Positions 31,057-62,436 of a DNA stretch of 64,000 nucleotides are shown here, piece after piece. Source of the stretch: Rhodococcus sp. SGAir0479. GTDB lineage: Bacteria; Actinomycetota; Actinomycetes; Mycobacteriales; Mycobacteriaceae. The number at the start of each line of letters is the position of its first letter. Within the stretch, counting starts at the first letter, position 1. Below the pieces are notes generated by a model. That model ran no database searches and was not told where the DNA came from. It saw nothing but the letters and a program-made list of their open reading frames with translations. The stretch spans positions 930,001-994,000 of the forward strand of contig NZ_CP039432.1 in NCBI RefSeq assembly GCF_005484805.1. Reading direction: 5' to 3'. The translations under genes and the position numbers were made by a program.

Positions 31057-32217
31057 TCAGCCGCCCGCGTAGTCGCCGAACCGCTCGTCGACCTCCTCCG
31101 CGGTCAACCCGTACTCCTCGAGGGTGTACTTGTGCGCCGGCTTGCGGCTGCCCGAGCGGCTCTCGGCGTGCATGTCCTCCATCGCCCGGTGTGCCTCCGG
31201 GGTCAGCGGAATCGAGAAGTGCGAGTAGATCTTCTCCACCGTGCCGAGGGGGTCGCCGACGAAGTCGGTGTAGTCGACGTCGATGAACTGCGCCGGGTCG
31301 TACTTCGCGCGGGCGGCGGTGAAGTCCTCGAGGCCACGCGCCCACAGGTCCAGTTGGCTGCGGCCGATCACCTGACCACGGAACTTTTCGGACCAGCCTT
31401 CGGTGGCCTGCTCGGCGAGGCTGCACACCGACGGCACGATGGTGCGCGGCGGGCGGTGAGTCTGGATGACCAGGGCGTCCGGGTACACCGCCATCAGTTC
31501 GTCGAGTGCGAACAGGTGGCTGGGGTTCTTGAGCACCCACCGCCGATCCCGATCCGGCAGGCCGATGAGCTGCAGGTTCTTCTTGTGCCGCGCGTAGGCG
31601 TTGGTCCAGTCCTGCTTCTCGAGCCACGCCGAGTAGGTCGGCAGGTGGGCCAGGCACTCGTACGACACGGACTTGAACGTCTGCCGCAGCAGCTGCCAAC
31701 ACTCCTCGACCTCGCCGGCCGACATGTAGTGCACGCCCATGAACTCGGGATGCTCGATGTGGTGCTTGCTGAACTGCTGTTCGATGGCCTGGAACACCGG
31801 GTCGGACTCCCAGGTGTCGCGGGGCGGGCGCGGTTGCGGCATCTCGGTCAGCCACATCTCGAGGCCCTGGTGGCCGGGGTCCACGGTGAGCAGCCGGTGC
31901 AGTGCGGTGGTGCCGGTCCGTGGCAGGCCGGTCACGAAGACGGGCCGCTCGATCGGGACGTCCGCGTGTTCGGGGTGCTGCTTCCACGCGGCCTCGCTCA
32001 GCAGGCGCGCGACCAGCGCGCCGCGCAAAAACACTCGGGAGATCTTGCTGCCGAACGGCGTCAGCTGCTCGTCCCTCGCGTACGAGTCGAGGAGAACCCC
32101 GAGAGCCTCGGTGTAGTCGTCGGTACCGAAGTCGTCGAGTCCGGTCATCCGGGTCGCGGACGCGTGCAGGTCCTCGACAGTGCCGACCGACGTGCGGTCG
32201 GAGCTGCGGTCAGTCAT
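31057..32217 (-). CDS. PAPS-dependent sulfotransferase family protein
   Basis: This 386-residue soluble protein matches the bacterial sulfotransferase family (Sulfotransfer_3 type) common in mycobacteria and rhodococci. The 5'-phosphosulfate loop is FVTGLPRTGTTALHRLL (about residues 94-110). A probable 3'-phosphate-binding region is LVIQTHRPPRTIVPSVCSLA (about 248-267), and RWVLKNPSHLFALDEL precedes it. It would transfer sulfate from PAPS to an unknown acceptor. It lies downstream of the SDR and DUF1214 genes, divergent from cysD-cysNC-cysQ, which make PAPS and degrade PAP. That context strengthens the call. Confidence 0.83.
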   Translation of the reverse strand: MTDRSSDRTSVGTVEDLHASATRMTGLDDFGTDDYTEALGVLLDSYARDEQLTPFGSKISRVFLRGALVARLLSEAAWKQHPEHADVPIERPVFVTGLPRTGTTALHRLLTVDPGHQGLEMWLTEMPQPRPPRDTWESDPVFQAIEQQFSKHHIEHPEFMGVHYMSAGEVEECWQLLRQTFKSVSYECLAHLPTYSAWLEKQDWTNAYARHKKNLQLIGLPDRDRRWVLKNPSHLFALDELMAVYPDALVIQTHRPPRTIVPSVCSLAEQATEGWSEKFRGQVIGRSQLDLWARGLEDFTAARAKYDPAQFIDVDYTDFVGDPLGTVEKIYSHFSIPLTPEAHRAMEDMHAESRSGSRKPAHKYTLEEYGLTAEEVDERFGDYAGG

Positions 32218-32239: not shown

Positions 32240-33037
32240 CTAGTGGTGGAACTCGCCGCAGTTGACGTCGATGCACTGTCCGGTGATCGCGCTCGCCATG
32301 GGGGAGGCCAGGAAGATCACGGCGTCGGCGATCTCCTCGGTGGTCGGCAACCGTTTGAGGTCGCTGTTGGCGGCCGTGTGCTCGTAGATCTGCTCCACGG
32401 TGATACCGAATTTCTCGGCCTGGTGCTCGAAGTACTTCTTCAGGGTGTCGCCCCAGATGTAGCCGGGGGCAACGGAGTTGACACGAATACCCTGCGGGCC
32501 CAGCTCGGTCGCGAGCGACTGCGACATCGCGAGCAGGGCCGACTTGGCCAGCTTGTAGCTGCCGTAGCGCTCCTGCGAGTGCCGCAGCACCATCGAGTTC
32601 ACGTTCACGACGGCGCCCTTCGACTCCGCCAGCGCCGGCGTGAACAACTGGGTCAGACGCAGCGCGCCCAGCACGGTCAGTTCGATCGCGTCCCGGATGT
32701 GCTGGAAGTCGGTGCGGGCGAACGGCTTCATCGACGGCACGGTGAACGCGTTGTTGATCAGACCGTCCACCCGGCCGTACGCGTCGGTGGTGGCGGCCAG
32801 CAGGTGCGCGGCCGACGCGTCGTCGGTGATGTCGGTCGACACGGTCACCGCGCGCCGGCCCAGGTCGGTCACCTCTTTGGCGACCTCGTCCAGCCGGGAC
32901 TGGGTGCGGGCGGCGAGCACCAGGTCGGCACCGGCCTCGGCGCAGCGCAGCGCGAGTGTGCGGCCGAGTGCGGGGCCCACACCCGAAATGACGATCACCT
33001 TGTTCTCGAGAAGTGCGGACTGCAGCGTCTTCGTCAT
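32240..33037 (-). CDS. Short-chain dehydrogenase/reductase (SDR)
   Basis: This 265-residue classical SDR has a nucleotide-binding N-terminus ISGVGPALGRTLALRCAEAG, with GVGPALG in place of the usual TGxxxGIG. It also has LINNAF (NNAG region), the catalytic Ser in NVNSMVLRHS and YGSYKLAK (Tyr and Lys), and RVNSVAPGYIWGDTL. SDRs of this type often act on steroid or other alicyclic hydroxyl or keto groups, which would suit an upstream sulfation substrate. It starts 2 bp after the DUF1214 stop codon at 33040. Confidence 0.87.
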   Translation of the reverse strand: MTKTLQSALLENKVIVISGVGPALGRTLALRCAEAGADLVLAARTQSRLDEVAKEVTDLGRRAVTVSTDITDDASAAHLLAATTDAYGRVDGLINNAFTVPSMKPFARTDFQHIRDAIELTVLGALRLTQLFTPALAESKGAVVNVNSMVLRHSQERYGSYKLAKSALLAMSQSLATELGPQGIRVNSVAPGYIWGDTLKKYFEHQAEKFGITVEQIYEHTAANSDLKRLPTTEEIADAVIFLASPMASAITGQCIDVNCGEFHH

Positions 33038-34226: not shown

Positions 34227-34244
34227 GGGTACAAATATGTACCC
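34227..34244. promoter_or_regulatory. Palindromic operator, copy 1 (probable IclR-type site)
   Basis: GGGTACA-AATA-TGTACCC is an inverted repeat with 7-bp arms. The 16-bp core GGTACAAATATGTACC recurs exactly at 35366-35381 in front of cysD. It lies between the DUF1214 start (34206) and its promoter. The adjacent IclR regulator is the obvious candidate binder. Confidence 0.75.
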
Positions 34245-34269
34245 CGCTGGTAGAACATGCGTCGAGCCG

Positions 34270-34299
34270 ACGATAGAACGTGTTTCAAGGAGTGGTCAA
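34270..34299 (-). promoter_or_regulatory. Predicted promoter of the DUF1214-SDR-sulfotransferase operon
   Basis: On the minus strand, TTGACC (34299-34294) is followed after 18 bp by TATCGT (34275-34270). The start site would be at about 34262, upstream of the palindrome at 34227-34244. The spacer contains the KstR-like box. Confidence 0.55.
34274..34287. promoter_or_regulatory. KstR-like box, copy 1
   Basis: TAGAACGTGTTTCA fits the consensus TnnAACnnGTTnnA reported for KstR, the TetR repressor of sterol catabolism in mycobacteria and rhodococci. All eight fixed positions match. It sits between -35 and -10 of the operon promoter and 12 bp upstream of the IclR ATG, so it could repress both. 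A half-site TAGAACATG lies at 34251-34259. Confidence 0.6.
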
Positions 34300-35237
34300 T
34301 GACTTCAGTGGAAGCCGAGTCCGCCGAGGCCGGGGGGCGGCGCTCTCCGCCGACCGCCCGAGTCGTCCAGATCCTCGACTTTCTCGTCGCCCGCGACGAG
34401 CAGCGATTCGGGTTGTCCGAGCTGGCGCGGGCGCTGTCGATCAGCAAACCGACGTGCCTGGGGATTCTGTCCGAGCTGGTGGCCGGAGGGTATCTCACCC
34501 GGGATCCGGCGTCGAAGTCCTACGGGCTGGGCCCCGCGCTCATCGCCGCGGGCCGAGCGGCCCAGCGCGGCTTCGCGGTAGGGCCCATCGCCCGTGCCCA
34601 CCTGGACGAGATCGCTGCCGAGTTCGGTGCGGTGTGCACGGCGTCCGCCGTGGTGGGCGACCAGGTCATGATCCTCGAGACGGTCGCGCCGCCGGGAGTG
34701 ACGCTGGGGCGCACCGCCGCCCGGGTGGGACAGGCCTACCCCTTCGCGCCGCCCGTGGGCCTCATGTACGTGATCTGGGACGGGGACGAGGACCTCGAGG
34801 CGTGGCTGCGGCGCGAACCGGCGCTGCCCGTCGTGCTCGACCGCGACCTGCTGCGGCGCGTCGTCGAGGACTGCCGGGACGTCGGGTACCTCGTCGAGCG
34901 ACTCACCCCGGTGGGGCGCAAACTCTTCTCCCTCATGGCCGGGGTCGCCGGGCGCGGGCTGCCGACCGAACTGCGTGAGCTGATCGGGGAGATGGTCTCG
35001 AGTCTCGGGGAGCGCGTCTACCTGCACAGCGAGACCGAGGCCGACGCCGAGTATCCGGTCAGTCTCATCGCGGCACCGGTCTATGACGCCGACGGACACC
35101 AGTCGCTGGTGCTGACGCTGGACGTGGGCGGCTCGATCAGCGGCGCGGAGATCGCCCGCCGCGGCGCCGCCCTGGTCGCGGCCGCGGATGCGGTGACTGC
35201 GCAGGTCGGCGGGCGGGCGCCGGTTCGCCACCCCTGA
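34299..35237 (+). CDS. IclR-family transcriptional regulator
   Basis: A 312-residue IclR-type protein. The N-terminal winged helix (about residues 22-75) contains FGLSELARALSISKPTCLGI. The effector domain from about 90 includes GPIARAHLDEIAAEFG and ends with the family-typical EYPVSLIAAPVYDADGHQSLVLTL. The ATG at 34299 has AAGGAG six nt upstream, and an in-frame ATG at 34257 lies within the control region and is rejected. It is divergent from the sulfotransferase operon and upstream of cysD. The shared palindrome suggests it controls both sides and itself. Ligand unknown. Confidence 0.88.
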   Translation: MTSVEAESAEAGGRRSPPTARVVQILDFLVARDEQRFGLSELARALSISKPTCLGILSELVAGGYLTRDPASKSYGLGPALIAAGRAAQRGFAVGPIARAHLDEIAAEFGAVCTASAVVGDQVMILETVAPPGVTLGRTAARVGQAYPFAPPVGLMYVIWDGDEDLEAWLRREPALPVVLDRDLLRRVVEDCRDVGYLVERLTPVGRKLFSLMAGVAGRGLPTELRELIGEMVSSLGERVYLHSETEADAEYPVSLIAAPVYDADGHQSLVLTLDVGGSISGAEIARRGAALVAAADAVTAQVGGRAPVRHP

Positions 35238-35239
35238 CC

Positions 35240-35292
35240 TGGCCGAATGTCACATGCGTTCAGTTGGACTGAACCGATGTGACATTCGGCCA
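35240..35292. repeat. 53-bp nested inverted repeat (long hairpin)
   Basis: A perfect 16-bp outer stem TGGCCGAATGTCACAT (35240-35255) / ATGTGACATTCGGCCA (35277-35292) encloses, after a 2x2 internal loop, a 7-bp inner stem GTTCAGT / ACTGAAC with a TGG loop. It begins 3 bp after the IclR stop. It has no T-run. It may terminate IclR transcription or be a copy of a mobile or dispersed palindromic element. Confidence 0.8.
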
Positions 35293-35307
35293 ACGCGGGG
35301 CGAGCCA

Positions 35308-35336
35308 TTGACCGCATCTGTAACAGGTTCTACTCT
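35308..35336 (+). promoter_or_regulatory. Predicted promoter of cysD-cysNC-cysQ
   Basis: TTGACC (35308-35313) and TACTCT (35331-35336) are separated by 17 bp. Transcription would begin near 35343, about 60 nt before the cysD start. The -35 is identical to that of the divergent sulfotransferase operon. Confidence 0.65.
35319..35332. promoter_or_regulatory. KstR-like box, copy 2
   Basis: TGTAACAGGTTCTA matches all fixed positions of TnnAACnnGTTnnA and overlaps the first bases of the cysD -10 box. Binding here would block RNA polymerase. Confidence 0.6.
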
Positions 35337-35364
35337 CGGGCCAGAGTCAGTTTGCGAACCGAGT

Positions 35365-35382
35365 CGGTACAAATATGTACCG
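35365..35382. promoter_or_regulatory. Palindromic operator, copy 2 (probable IclR-type site)
   Basis: CGGTACA-AATA-TGTACCG has the same 16-bp core as the site at 34227-34244. It lies about 22-40 bp downstream of the predicted cysD transcription start and 20 bp before the GTG start codon, a roadblock-type position. Confidence 0.75.
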
Positions 35383-35401: not shown

Positions 35402-36328
35402 GTGACACCCCTGGCATCCCCGTCCACCTACGAGCTGTCACATCTGCAGGCGCTCGAGGCCGAGGCGGTCCACATCTTCCGCGAGGTCGCCGCGACCTTC
35501 GAGCGGCCCGTCCTGCTGTTCTCCGGCGGCAAGGACTCGGTGGTGATGCTGCACGTCGCCACCAAGGCGTTCTGGCCGGCGCCGCTGCCGTTTCCGGTGA
35601 TGCACGTCGACACCGGCCACAACTTCGACGAGGTGATCGAGTTCCGCGACACCACGGTCGAGCGTCTGGGCCTGCGGTTGGTGGTCGCGAGCGTCGAGGA
35701 CGACATCGCGGCGGGCCGGGTGGTCGACGAGACCGGCCCGCGGGCGAGCCGCAACCGGCTGCAGACGCACTCGCTCCTGCGCGGCATTCGGGAGAACCGT
35801 TTCGACGCGGTGTTCGGCGGCGCCCGCCGCGACGAGGAGAAGGCCCGCGCCAAGGAGCGGGTCTTCAGCTTCCGGGACGAGTTCGGGCAGTGGGATCCCA
35901 AGGCGCAGCGGCCCGAACTGTGGAACCTCTACAACGGTCGGCACCGCCGCGGTGAGCACATCCGGGTGTTCCCGCTGTCCAACTGGACCGAACTCGACAT
36001 CTGGCAGTACATCGCCTCGGAGGAGATCGAGCTGCCGTCGATCTACTACGCGCACCGCCGCCCGGTCGTCGAACGCGACGGAATGCTGTTGGCGCGCACC
36101 CGGTTCCTGACGCTTCTCCCCGGTGAGGAAGCGCGCGAGGAGCTCGTGCGGTTCCGCACCGTCGGCGACGCGACGTGCACCGGCTGCGTCGAGTCGTCCG
36201 CCGCCACCGCAGCCGAGGTCGTCACCGAGGTCGCGGCCAGCCGCATCACCGAGCGCGGTGCCACCCGCGCCGACGACCGGATCTCCGAGGCCGGCATGGA
36301 AGACCGCAAGAAGGAGGGGTACTTCTGA
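35402..36328 (+). CDS. cysD: Sulfate adenylyltransferase subunit 2
   Basis: This 308-residue PP-loop ATP pyrophosphatase forms adenosine 5'-phosphosulfate (APS) from sulfate and ATP together with the GTPase CysN. The PP-loop is [20 protein letters not shown] (residues 39-58). [29 protein letters not shown] and the C-terminal [15 protein letters not shown] are also diagnostic. The GTG at 35402 with GAGGAG upstream is preferred; an in-frame ATG at 35375 lies inside the palindromic operator and has no ribosome binding site. Confidence 0.93.
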
Positions 36329-38181
36329 TGGCCCACACCCAGCAACTCCTCCGCGTCGCCACTGCGGGCAGCGTCGACGACGGCAAGTCCACACTGATCG
36401 GGCGCCTGCTGTACGACTCGAAGTCGATTTTCGAGGACCAGCTCGAGGCGGTCGAGCGCAGCAGCCGCGAGCGCGGCACCGAGTACACGGATCTGGCGCT
36501 GCTCACCGACGGCCTCCGCGCCGAGCGCGAGCAGGGCATCACGATCGACGTGGCGCACCGCTACTTCGCGACGCCGCAGCGCAAGTTCATCATCGCCGAC
36601 ACCCCCGGGCACGAGCAGTACACCCGCAACATGGTCACCGGCGCCTCCACCGCCGACCTCGCGCTGATCCTCGTCGACGCCCGCAAGGGCGTGCTCGAAC
36701 AGACCCGCCGGCACGCGTTCCTGTCGACGCTGCTCGGGATCCCGCACCTGGTGCTGTGCGTCAACAAGATGGATCTCGTGGACTGGTCGCAGGAGCGTTT
36801 CGAGGAGATCAAGGACGAGTTCGGGCAGTTCGCGACCAAGCTCGACGTGCACGACCTCACGTTCATTCCGGTCTCGGCGCTCAAGGGCGACAACATCGTC
36901 ACCCGCACCGAGAACATGCCGTGGTACGGGGGTTCGTCGCTGCTGCACCATCTCGAGGACGTGCACATCGCATCCGACCGCAACCTCATCGACGCGCGGC
37001 TGCCCGTCCAGTACGTGATCCGGCCGCAGCGGCAGACCGACGCCGACCTGCACGACTTCCGCGGCTACGCGGGCACCGTCGCCAGCGGAGTGTTCAAGCC
37101 GGGCGACGAGGTGGTCGCGCTGCCGTCGGGATTCACGTCGACGATCTCCGCGATCTGGGGGCCCGGCGGGGAGGAGGTCAAGGAGGCCTTCGCGCCGTCC
37201 GCGGTGTGCGTGCAACTCGCCGACGACCTCGACGTCAGCCGCGGCGACACCCTGTGCAGGCCGAACAACCGACCACTCGTCGGTCAGGAGCTCGACGCGA
37301 TGATCTGCTGGTTCACCGAGCAGTCGTCGCTGAGCCCGGACGCGCGGTACACGGTCCTGCACACCACCCGCGCGACGAAGGCGCAGGTGGTGCGGCTCGG
37401 CTACCGCCTCGACGTCAACACCCTGCACCGGGACGAGACCGCCCAGTCGTTGACGCTCAACGAGATCGGGCGCGTCCAGCTGCGCACCCAGCAGCCACTG
37501 CTGTTCGACCCGTACCGCCGCAACCGGGTGACCGGCAGCTTCATCCTCGTCGACGACACCACCGGCAACACCGTCGCCGCCGGGATGATCACCGGGCCCA
37601 CCCTCAAGGAATCGAAGGTGGTGTGGCACTCGGCGGCCGTGTCCCGCGACGAGCGCGCGACCCGCGGCTCGACGGTGTGGCTCACCGGGCTGTCGGCGTC
37701 CGGGAAATCCACGGTCGCGGTGGAACTCGAACGACGTCTGGTTGCCGCCGGAATTCCCGCGTATCGGCTCGACGGCGACAACCTGCGACACGGTCTCAAC
37801 GCAGACCTCGGGTTCAGCGCCGAGGATCGGGCGGAGAACGTCCGGCGCGTCGGAGCCGTCGCGCAGCTGCTCGCCGACGCCGGCATGGTCGCGGTCGCCT
37901 CGCTCATCAGCCCGTACGCCGCGGATCGCGACCGCGTGCGCCGACTGCACGAGGAGGCCGGCCTGCCGTTCGTCGAGGTGTTCGTCGACACCCCGATCGA
38001 ACAGTGCGAGGCGCGCGACCCCAAGGGGATGTACGCCAAGGCCCGGGCGGGGGAGATCACCGGCTTCACCGGCGTCGACGACCCGTACGAGGCGCCCGAA
38101 CGAGCCGAACTGGTGCTGCGGCCGGAGGACGGCGACCCGGTCGCCCAGGCCGCCAAGATCATGGAGTATCTGAACCTGTGA
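36328..38181 (+). CDS. cysNC: Bifunctional sulfate adenylyltransferase subunit 1 / APS kinase
   Basis: This 617-residue fusion makes PAPS. The CysN part (1-430) is an EF-Tu-like GTPase: P-loop [10 protein letters not shown] (15-24), [20 protein letters not shown], followed by two beta-barrel domains. The CysC part (about 445-617) is APS kinase: [31 protein letters not shown], and the phospho-Ser region [14 protein letters not shown]. The ATG at 36328 shares one base with the cysD stop and has AAGGAGGGG upstream. Fusion of CysN and CysC is normal in mycobacteria and rhodococci. Confidence 0.95.
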
Positions 38182-39296
38182 GCACCGACGCCGAACTGGC
38201 CGCCGACCTCGCCACCCGCGCGGGCGACCTCCTGCTCGACATCCGGGCCCGCGAGCTGGGGGACACCCCGCTCGACACGGCCGCCGCGAAAGAGTTGGGC
38301 AGACGCGGTGACAAGGCGGCGAACGCGCTCCTGCTGGAAGCGCTGACCGCCGCACGCCCGCTCGACGCCGTGCTGTCCGAGGAATCCGCCGACGACGCTG
38401 CCCGCCTCGACAACGAGCGCGTCTGGATCGTCGACCCGCTCGACGGGTCCCGCGAGTACGGCCTGGCCGGACGGGCCGATTGGGCCGTGCACGTCGCGCT
38501 GTGGGAGCGGGACGCGGGTATCACCGCGGCGGCCGTGGCACAGCCCGCACGCGGCGAGGTGTACGTGGGGGGAGCGGCCCGCGCGGCGACGCCGGACCGC
38601 GAACGTCCCCGAATCCTGGTGAGCGACAGCCGTCCTCCCGAGTTCGTGGCCGCGCTGGCGCAACGCGTCGGCGGCACGGTCGCGTCGATGGGCTCCGCCG
38701 GCGCCAAGGCCATGGCGGTCCTACGCGGTGACGCCGACGCGTACGTGCATGCCGGTGGGCAGTGGGAGTGGGACTCGGCGGCGCCGGTCGGTGTCGCCCT
38801 CGCGGCCGGGCTGCACTGTTCCCGGATCGACGGCACACCGCTGCGGTACAACCAACCGCACCCTTACCTGCCGGATCTGCTGATCTGTCGCCGGGAGCTC
38901 GCGGTGCCGCTGCTCGCCGGGATCGCCGAGCTGACCGCCGCGGCGGCCCAGGACAGTCCGCGGGTCGCGATGGCACGCGAGTACATCGCCTCGCTCGTCT
39001 CACACGATGCGAGCAAGGTGCGGCTCGCGCGCCGCTGCCACCGCTACGAAAACGGTCAGCGCACGGGCGATTCCGGTGACGAGATCCGTGGACTGCTCGA
39101 GACCGGCGGGCAGTACCGGCCGATCAGCGCGGTGCGCGACCTGCAATTCCGGGAATGGGGCAGCGACGTCGTCGCCCGGTTCCTGCTCGACATCACCGCC
39201 GGGCGCGACACCCTGACCGTCGCCGTCACCGAGCACTTCTCGATACCCGGTGCCGAGATCGATGCGATCACCGCGGTCATCGAACCGCACCCGTGA
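38178..39296 (+). CDS. cysQ: CysQ-type 3'(2'),5'-bisphosphate nucleotidase fused to an NTF2-like domain
   Basis: This 372-residue protein begins at a GTG overlapping the cysNC stop. Residues 1-262 match mycobacterial CysQ, an inositol-monophosphatase-fold enzyme that turns PAP into AMP. They carry the metal ligands in VLSEESADD and [16 protein letters not shown] and the C-terminal metal motif [20 protein letters not shown]. Residues 265-372 form an extra NTF2/SnoaL-like domain ([48 protein letters not shown]), normally a free-standing protein in mycolata. No stop separates the two. An ATG at 38970 (residue 265) could also give the second domain on its own. Confidence 0.88.
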
Positions 39297-62049: not shown

Positions 62050-62436
62050 GCACGGTCCGGAGCCGTCCCTGGAACCGGTTGCAGGTTTCCGGGGACCCCG
62101 TCTACACAACGTCGTAGATGTCTTGATAGTCTCTGGGCCAAGCGAGTGCGCCGACGACCGGAAAGTCCAGATCACTGGTTGTCCCGGTGGCGCTTGCAGG
62201 CAGCAAGGGCTGTCGGAGTTGCCCGAATTCGAGATTCGGGCGGAGCCGCCCTCGAGTTGCCGAGTCGACGACAGTCGCCGACACCGACAGACGCCAGGAC
62301 CGGTTCGCCCGAGTCTTCAGCTGCTGACGAATAAGCGAGCCGACCTGGTCGACTTGTTAGTTCGTCAATGTCCGATCGAACCGCAGACAGCGATGCCTGC
62401 GGCCGACTACGGGAGAGACCGCTGAGCGTCACCTTC
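62050..62436 (+). promoter_or_regulatory. Gap between atpI and atpB with hairpin and possible promoter
   Basis: This 387-bp stretch has an imperfect hairpin, GTCCCTGGAACC pairing with GGTTTCCGGGGAC at 62065-62096, and a small TCTAC/GTAGA inverted repeat (62101-62118). A -10-like TAGTCT lies at 62127-62132. It may hold a separate promoter for atpB and the rest of the operon with a leader of almost 300 nt. I see no convincing gene in it. Confidence 0.4.

Follow-up and report, generated by a model that had tools for sequence, protein, structure and literature searches.

Two promoters on either side of a gene for an IclR-family regulator carry the same pair of candidate control sites in Rhodococcus sp. 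SGAir0479: a 14-bp box of the kind bound by the sterol-sensing repressor KstR, and a palindrome, GGTACAAATATGTACC, that resembles an IclR operator. They lie in a stretch of 64,000 nucleotides (contig NZ_CP039432.1, positions 930,001 to 994,000), which is called the window below and gives the coordinates unless the whole genome of 4,974,457 bp (4.97 Mb) is meant. Promoter A would drive an operon of a DUF1214-like gene, a short-chain dehydrogenase/reductase (SDR) gene and a sulfotransferase gene. Promoter B would drive cysD-cysNC-cysQ, whose predicted products would make the sulfate donor phosphoadenylyl sulfate (PAPS) and clear its by-product. From sequence comparison we consider it likely that KstR and the local IclR protein gate both the PAPS supply and the sulfotransferase operon; it is the prediction that is supported, not regulation as a fact. 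A preliminary description of the window had proposed such joint control, and the proposal is supported as a prediction by a genome that encodes KstR with a box beside its gene, and by the IclR-type form of the palindromic site.

Two promoters built alike

How similar are the two promoters? Aligned on the box, they share their whole arrangement (Table 1). The preliminary description had given each of them a TTGACC -35, a box and a palindrome, and all three are exact there. It had placed the box at or beside the -10, which holds as to nearness; more precisely, both boxes fill the end of the spacer, and their last 2 bases are the first 2 of the -10. The palindrome starts 30 bp from the box in A and 33 bp in B, and in A it sits between the predicted transcription start and the first gene of the operon. 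Note that the -35 of promoter A shares 1 bp with the iclR start codon, so that A and iclR are divergent.

The boxes were scored with a weight matrix built from the 47 published KstR sites in Table 3 of Kendall et al. 2007 (PMC1995591), which themselves score between 13.2 and 27.0 with a median of 24.0. Box A, TGAAACACGTTCTA in the direction of operon A, and box B, TGTAACAGGTTCTA, are the best 14-mers of the window, the next best having 13.5, and none of 20 shuffled windows held a 14-mer scoring at least as high as the weaker box. Both promoters also carry the mark of the KstR regulon, a TnnAACnnGTTnnA box at the promoter, in exact form. The boxes had been described as rare by chance and as having no other copy in the window. 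The second statement fails, since there is a third exact TNNAACNNGTTNNA at 62070-62083. Its score of 13.5 is near the bottom of the published range, and it lies about 285 bp before an open reading frame (ORF) that by eye resembles ATP synthase subunit a; considered as a further regulon member, it was taken as a chance match on account of this score and this gene. The first statement holds for the matrix scores and not for the bare pattern, which is weak evidence: over the genome it matches 50 times, and its reversed control 11 times.

Conservation in related genomes

Are these sites kept in relatives? The own genus is here the Prescottella group of Rhodococcus, with 14 genomes (G006 and G012 as 3-kb loci). 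In the family, 178 of 401 genomes have an iclR match at E 1e-30 or better, the weakest of which may be paralogues. From these 178, mostly from the better matches, 62 loci of 14 genera were picked, one per genome. The rates below therefore apply to a picked sample, and rows within a genus are related rather than independent. Of the genera, g29 may be Mycobacterium and g22 Nocardia, which is a guess. Outside the 62 stand L170 and L174, with no DUF-like gene nearby, and L182, a second copy in G074 that is included in the 63 A and 46 B alignment rows. In L125, L126 and L137 cysD abuts iclR with no promoter B, so that they are not among the 45 B promoters.

The gene order sulfotransferase-SDR-DUF, iclR, cysD-cysNC recurs in most fetched loci. 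In the own genus, the palindrome (up to 2 mismatches) is found in 14/14 genomes, as a pair 1062-1147 bp apart in 13/14, and exact boxes stand at both promoters in 11/14. Over the 62 loci, promoter A has an exact box in 55, a box with at most 1 mismatch in 56 and a palindrome with at most 3 mismatches in 57; the numbers for the 45 B promoters are 27, 42 and 33. Shuffled promoters gave means of 0.07 for the exact box, 1.8-2.0 for the box at one mismatch and 0.03 for the palindrome. Counted by genera with at least one positive locus, the A box is found in 12/14, the A palindrome in 13/14, the B box in 8/8 and the B palindrome in 7/8. Thus the motifs, whose absence from orthologous loci would have spoken against the proposal, are kept there. 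The fixed box positions in the spacer are nearly invariant (59-62 of 63 rows in A, 43-46 of 46 in B), partly by construction because the rows were aligned on the best box match; the shuffles are the real control. The box is kept even where it lies elsewhere in the promoter: in genus g30 the A box is downstream of the likely -10 (by eye) and still present in 4/4 loci. In genus g13 only the palindrome is kept at A, and it stays beside iclR in 3/3 loci though cysD is not adjacent.

Could the boxes be chance matches, or just conserved promoter sequence? The 11 places of the reversed control and the weak extra copy in the window would allow for it. On the other side, the 55 and 27 exact boxes stand against 0.07 per shuffled set, and KstR binding is published for the orthologous A site (PMC1995591). 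We regard this explanation as extremely improbable; for the motifs as such, chance occurrence is ruled out by the genome counts together with the shuffles.

G074 presents a case of its own, for its second copy of the locus (L182) has diverged as a whole, with a diverged palindrome, a weak ACC-N5-palindrome and no exact KstR box.

A predicted operator of three half-sites

The palindrome had been supposed not to be scattered over the genome, and this is what a scan gives: at up to 2 mismatches there are only two copies, both here and flanking iclR, and at 3 mismatches there is one further place, as there is one for the reversed control. The operator had been described as a palindrome of 16 bp. 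A palindrome it is, only the site is longer, with a further half-site ACC 5 bp upstream at both promoters. Where the palindrome could be aligned (61 of 63 A and 33 of 46 B sequences), ACC stands at this offset of -8 in 58/61 A sites and 33/33 B sites, the three A exceptions being the g29 loci L148-L150, and it occurs at offsets -15 to -9 in no A or B site. Its sequence is that of the palindrome's right half, from which it is 21 bp away, or two helix turns. The extended pattern ACCN5GGTNCAN4TGNACC has two matches in the genome, the A and B sites. In the family it matches in 162/401 genomes, a number to be read with care, since the reversed control also matches and some of the listed matches look chance-like by eye.

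Such an arrangement has been described for operators of the IclR family. In the accessible text of Suvorova and Gelfand 2021 (PMC8222616), three-box sites are predicted for 32 regulator groups and tandem sites 18-22 nt apart for 94 groups. The site here has the third box in alternating direction or, read as a tandem, a distance of 21 bp that falls within the 18-22 nt. Compared with the group 1 consensus of that paper, GKTYCRYW3-4RYGRAMC, the G, K, T, C and the G, A, M, C positions agree. An iclR homologue without a DUF-like operon in 10 kb (L174, in G070) has ACC-N5 and a diverged palindrome upstream, and 0/300 resampled regions were as good; this site speaks for IclR as the binder. The resampling search found sites also at L153 and, weakly, at L182 (11/300 as good); it superseded an earlier stricter palindrome pattern that had matched none of L170, L174, L182, L171 and L153. 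A comparison of changes in the helix-turn-helix with changes in the operator could not assign the DNA contact, as the stretch SKPTCLGI / AKPTCLGI varies little.

Another regulator, for example of sulfur or redox, might own the palindrome, with iclR adjacent by chance. M. tuberculosis cysDNC does answer to sulfur supply, redox stress and SigH, according to the accessible text of PMC3141025. This would leave unexplained that both genome copies flank iclR and come as pairs in nearly all genomes of the genus, that the order of half-sites and the 21-bp spacing are of the IclR type, and that the palindrome stays by iclR without cysD (g13) and, diverged, without the DUF-like operon (L174). We hold it improbable, and are highly confident that the palindrome would be bound by the IclR protein.

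KstR in the genome and in the published regulon

The genome has one KstR over the cut-off (4714418-4714963; NF033703, 335.7 bits against a cut-off of 280), close to solved KstR chains. A box, TAGAACACGTTCTA, lies between kstR and a divergent ORF of 727 residues resembling acyl-CoA dehydrogenases, which we infer to be fadE34; the accessible text of Kendall et al. 2007 (PMC1995591) has kstR and fadE34 arranged likewise. Another strong box stands between a P450 gene and a steroid thiolase gene whose match exceeds the cut-off. Each of the 29 genomes tested has one KstR over the cut-off (29/29), so the presence of KstR fails to predict the box, and its correlation with the presence of the box was set aside as an uninformative test.

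Two further strong boxes were noticed in this genome. The same TAGAACACGTTCTA is found at 3021154, about 145 bp past the end of the mycofactocin methyltransferase gene mftM and possibly in front of the gene after it. Another, TAGAACCTGTTCTA, at 1302393, stands at a divergent gene pair for a wax ester synthase and, below its cut-off, a LipQ-like esterase, which hints that KstR might be connected with storage lipids.

Which known operon corresponds to operon A? Its sulfotransferase matches PDB 2zq5, which we take to be Stf1/Rv3529c of M. tuberculosis, and from this match, together with the gene names and order in mycobacteria, the DUF1214-like gene is presumably Rv3531c/MSMEG_5932. For these genes PMC1995591 reports, in the text available, that KstR binds the Rv3531c/Rv3532 box and that loss of kstR derepresses MSMEG_5932, given there as the orthologue, by a factor of 6; at the kstR promoter the box overlaps the -10. 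KstR control of the operon on the DUF side is thus already known in mycobacteria. In the comparison with the published regulon that the preliminary description had advised, the A-side operon is listed; the words 'cysd' and 'sulfate' do not occur in the main text of PMC1995591. Elsewhere, Rv3529c-Rv3531c are merely listed among cholesterol-related genes in the accessible part of PMC6429209; the main text of PMC4881515, on the sterol transcriptome of M. smegmatis, has no mention of MSMEG_5930 to 5933, sulfotransferase or cysD; and in the available text of PMC7846781 KstR and cysD both occur with no link between them. KstR very probably acts on promoter A, and we are almost as confident that it would act on promoter B.

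Points against joint control, and the alternatives

Several observations, gathered in this section, weigh against joint control of a sulfation pathway. The A box is lost in 6/62 loci (L117, L145, L146, L153, L171, L173), and KstR is present also in genomes without it (G052, G025, G070 of g13, G284, G024, G058). The B box is lost in G011 and G013 and has 2 mismatches in G002. The B palindrome is lost in G002 and in 11/11 loci of genus g22, whose cysD promoters keep the box only, with one mismatch in all 11. At promoter A, the palindrome has more than 3 mismatches in 4/7 g29 loci and in g12; cysD is non-adjacent in 7/7 g29 loci, and in three of the seven (L148, L149, L150) the palindrome lies upstream of the -35. 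As to the operator, the fit to the group 1 consensus of PMC8222616 is only loose, since the Y/R positions are mostly A/T here and the site has 16 bp. No convincing site was found by resampling at the iclR homologue of G249 (L170; 26/300 resampled regions as good) or at L171 (127/300). The conserved TACC in A could instead be part of the iclR promoter, a reading against which promoter B speaks.

One alternative is that the two inputs are independent: only KstR would give sterol control, and the IclR site would be autoregulatory or an activator site answering to a signal with no relation to sterols, for instance sulfur status or an aromatic compound. IclR regulons, in the accessible text of PMC8222616, are mainly for aromatics and also for sugars. 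In L148-L150 a roadblock is impossible because the palindrome is upstream of the -35, a position that would suit activation, and the g22 promoters separate box and palindrome altogether. However, in the 31 B promoters with both sites the palindrome begins at a distance of 27-35 bp from the box and past the predicted start, a position that fits repression better than activation. We consider independent inputs unlikely, though the most serious of the alternatives.

Would the cysD operon then serve sulfation, or general sulfate assimilation with a KstR box nearby by accident? In many bacteria CysD and CysN belong to sulfate assimilation, and this genome has three CysD genes. One belongs to a second cysD-cysNC at about 4260.7-4263.7 kb; the 18 kb taken around it hold a single exact box, which lies 8 kb past the pair, the 4.7 kb ahead of the pair are free of exact boxes, and the one neighbouring ORF scanned gave no match. 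Another belongs to a separate cysH-cysD-cysN set, where cysN has 431 residues without the kinase part and no match to adenylyl sulfate (APS) kinase was found. The CysH of this set passes an NCBIfam model named phosphoadenylyl-sulfate (PAPS) reductase and, with 233.2 bits where 235.3 are needed, falls 2 bits short of the APS reductase model, so that its use of APS rests on signature residues; these model names weigh mildly against a pure sulfation role of the cysD operon. The protein is far below the PAPS reductase model TIGR02057 (156.4 against a cut-off of 254.2). It carries CCALRKVAPL, SIGCAPCT and KTECGLH, and such residues, according to the accessible text of PMC8557817, are signatures of APS reductase not found with PAPS reductase activity. 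Should these signatures be valid, assimilation would take APS away ahead of PAPS.

The distribution of cysNC bears on the same question. By coordinates, 20 of the 27 genomes searched have it at this locus, in G120 at some 6 kb past iclR, and for 11 of these 20 it alone gives an APS kinase match of more than 200 bits. Each of the 11 also has two neighbouring PF01507 genes away from this locus, which by analogy with the present genome are taken as cysH-cysD. These pairs, the set without kinase in the present genome, and the position of cysNC-cysQ next to a sulfotransferase, which fits PAPS use, speak against general assimilation, and an incidental box seems to us very improbable.

A proposed mechanism

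What would joint control look like? KstR would cover the last part of the spacer together with the first bases of the -10, blocking initiation until an intermediate of sterol breakdown frees it. The IclR protein on ACC-N5-GGTACN6GTACC would be a second barrier at about +21 to +39, assuming a start 7 bp after the -10. Both operons would open only when both signals agree, and two inputs of this kind would silence a costly donor and enzyme as long as either a sterol intermediate or a second signal, which may be the substrate, is missing. Binding of KstR and IclR, repression by IclR, the ligands and the origin of the sulfated substrate in sterol metabolism are what we infer. That the two regulators act as a joint lock we judge somewhat better than even. 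For a sterol-derived substrate of the sulfotransferase the chances are about equal either way. Slightly below even we place the wide form of the idea, in which sulfation triggered by sterols under a two-key lock of KstR and IclR would hold across a large part of the family, cells with this cysNC as their only strong APS kinase (about half of the genomes checked) would make PAPS only during sterol breakdown, and a sterol-derived molecule would be sulfated.

Genes and other features of the locus

The features are collected in Table 1. For the DUF1214 label given earlier to the first gene of operon A, the match (19.2 bits, E 0.0018) is below the Pfam cut-off of 25; we call the gene DUF1214-like for this reason. 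In the IclR protein the IclR_C effector domain reaches 22.9 bits with a cut-off of 24.

Directly 3' of the iclR stop, at 35240-35292, there is a long, near-perfect inverted repeat (-39.2 kcal/mol, z -6.8), which may act as a terminator and shield promoter B. The arm of the repeat, CCGAATGTCACAT, is unique in the window when 1 mismatch is allowed, and by eye pieces resembling the repeat precede cysD in some relatives.

Table 1. Promoter elements and genes around iclR, in window coordinates
Feature	Position	Strand	Basis
KstR-type box, promoter A	34274..34287	-	exact TNNAACNNGTTNNA; score 23.9
KstR-type box, promoter B	35319..35332	+	exact TNNAACNNGTTNNA; score 21.3
-35 TTGACC, promoter A	34294..34299	-	read from sequence; alignment
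-10 TATCGT, promoter A	34270..34275	-	18-bp spacer; read from sequence; alignment
-35 TTGACC, promoter B	35308..35313	+	read from sequence; alignment
-10 TACTCT, promoter B	35331..35336	+	17-bp spacer; read from sequence; alignment
Palindrome GGTACAAATATGTACC, predicted IclR operator, promoter A	34228..34243	-	exact; conserved
Palindrome GGTACAAATATGTACC, predicted IclR operator, promoter B	35366..35381	+	exact; conserved
Third half-site ACC, promoter A, 5 bp upstream of palindrome in operon A direction	34249..34251	-	extended match at 964228-964251 of the genome
Third half-site ACC, promoter B, 5 bp upstream of palindrome	35358..35360	+	extended match at 965358-965381 of the genome
Sulfotransferase (activity predicted), last gene of operon A	31057..32217	-	PF13469 4.5e-59, 200.8 bits; PDB 2zq5 E 1e-173
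SDR	32240..33037	-	PF13561 3.3e-50; NF005909 6.4e-129; PDB 3ucx 6.1e-122
Weakly DUF1214-like gene that opens operon A, GTG start codon	33040..34206	-	PDB 6ans E 1.3e-31
iclR, IclR-family regulator, between both promoters	34299..35237	+	PF09339 (HTH_IclR) 5.6e-8, 32.9 bits, cut-off 22
cysD, sulfate adenylyltransferase small subunit	35402..36328	+	TIGR02039 5.5e-140
cysNC, sulfate adenylyltransferase large subunit fused to APS kinase	36325..38181	+	NF004035 1e-294; PF01583
cysQ-like phosphatase	38178..39000 (end approximate; stretch as scanned)	+	PF00459 3.4e-29; TIGR01331 8.4e-24, under cut-off

Comparison with known systems

Since 2007 the operon on the Rv3531c side has been counted as part of the KstR regulon; the parts of the literature consulted state no function for it. 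PAPS synthesis under the same pair of sites suggests a testable role, namely sulfation during growth on sterols. In the open-licence literature we found neither KstR control of PAPS synthesis (cysDNC), nor the shared IclR operator, nor the three-box site. If the prediction is true, a sulfated metabolite is to be expected, a second sensor is named, and there is a natural two-input promoter kept over many genera.

The KstR regulon of mycobacteria (PMC1995591) has the same box sequence, likewise overlapping the -10, and includes the operon on the Rv3531c side among its targets; unlike here, a second regulator site is not described in the accessible text. With the IclR operators with three boxes or tandem sites, such as those of PcaU, PobR and HmgR (PMC8222616, in the part available), the locus shares the palindrome with an outer half-site, the adjoining regulator gene and the repeat about two helical turns off. 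In contrast to those, the targets here are sulfate activation and a sulfotransferase, the promoters are shared with KstR, and the half-site is GGTAC instead of GKTYC.

The enzymes recall the sulfation branch of M. tuberculosis as far as PMC3141025 is accessible, with APS as the branch point, CysNC leading to PAPS, sulfotransferases using PAPS and CysQ clearing phosphoadenosine phosphate (PAP). The cysDNC genes are described there under stress, sulfur supply and SigH, and 'cholesterol' and 'kstr' do not occur in that text. In Rhodococcus qingshengii IGTS8, CysN2C-D2 is likewise an additional ATP sulfurylase with a fused APS kinase, next to a sulfotransferase and away from the assimilation set; it differs in gene order, in its sulfotransferase Stf0, and in having been seen with dibenzothiophene as the sulfur source (PMC8557817, accessible text). 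Finally, SRTF2 (PMC7062782, accessible text) is an IclR-type gene in a steroid-responsive setting and is induced by steroids, and the difference is that it lies by a ketosteroid dehydrogenase and under the TetR regulator SRTF1.

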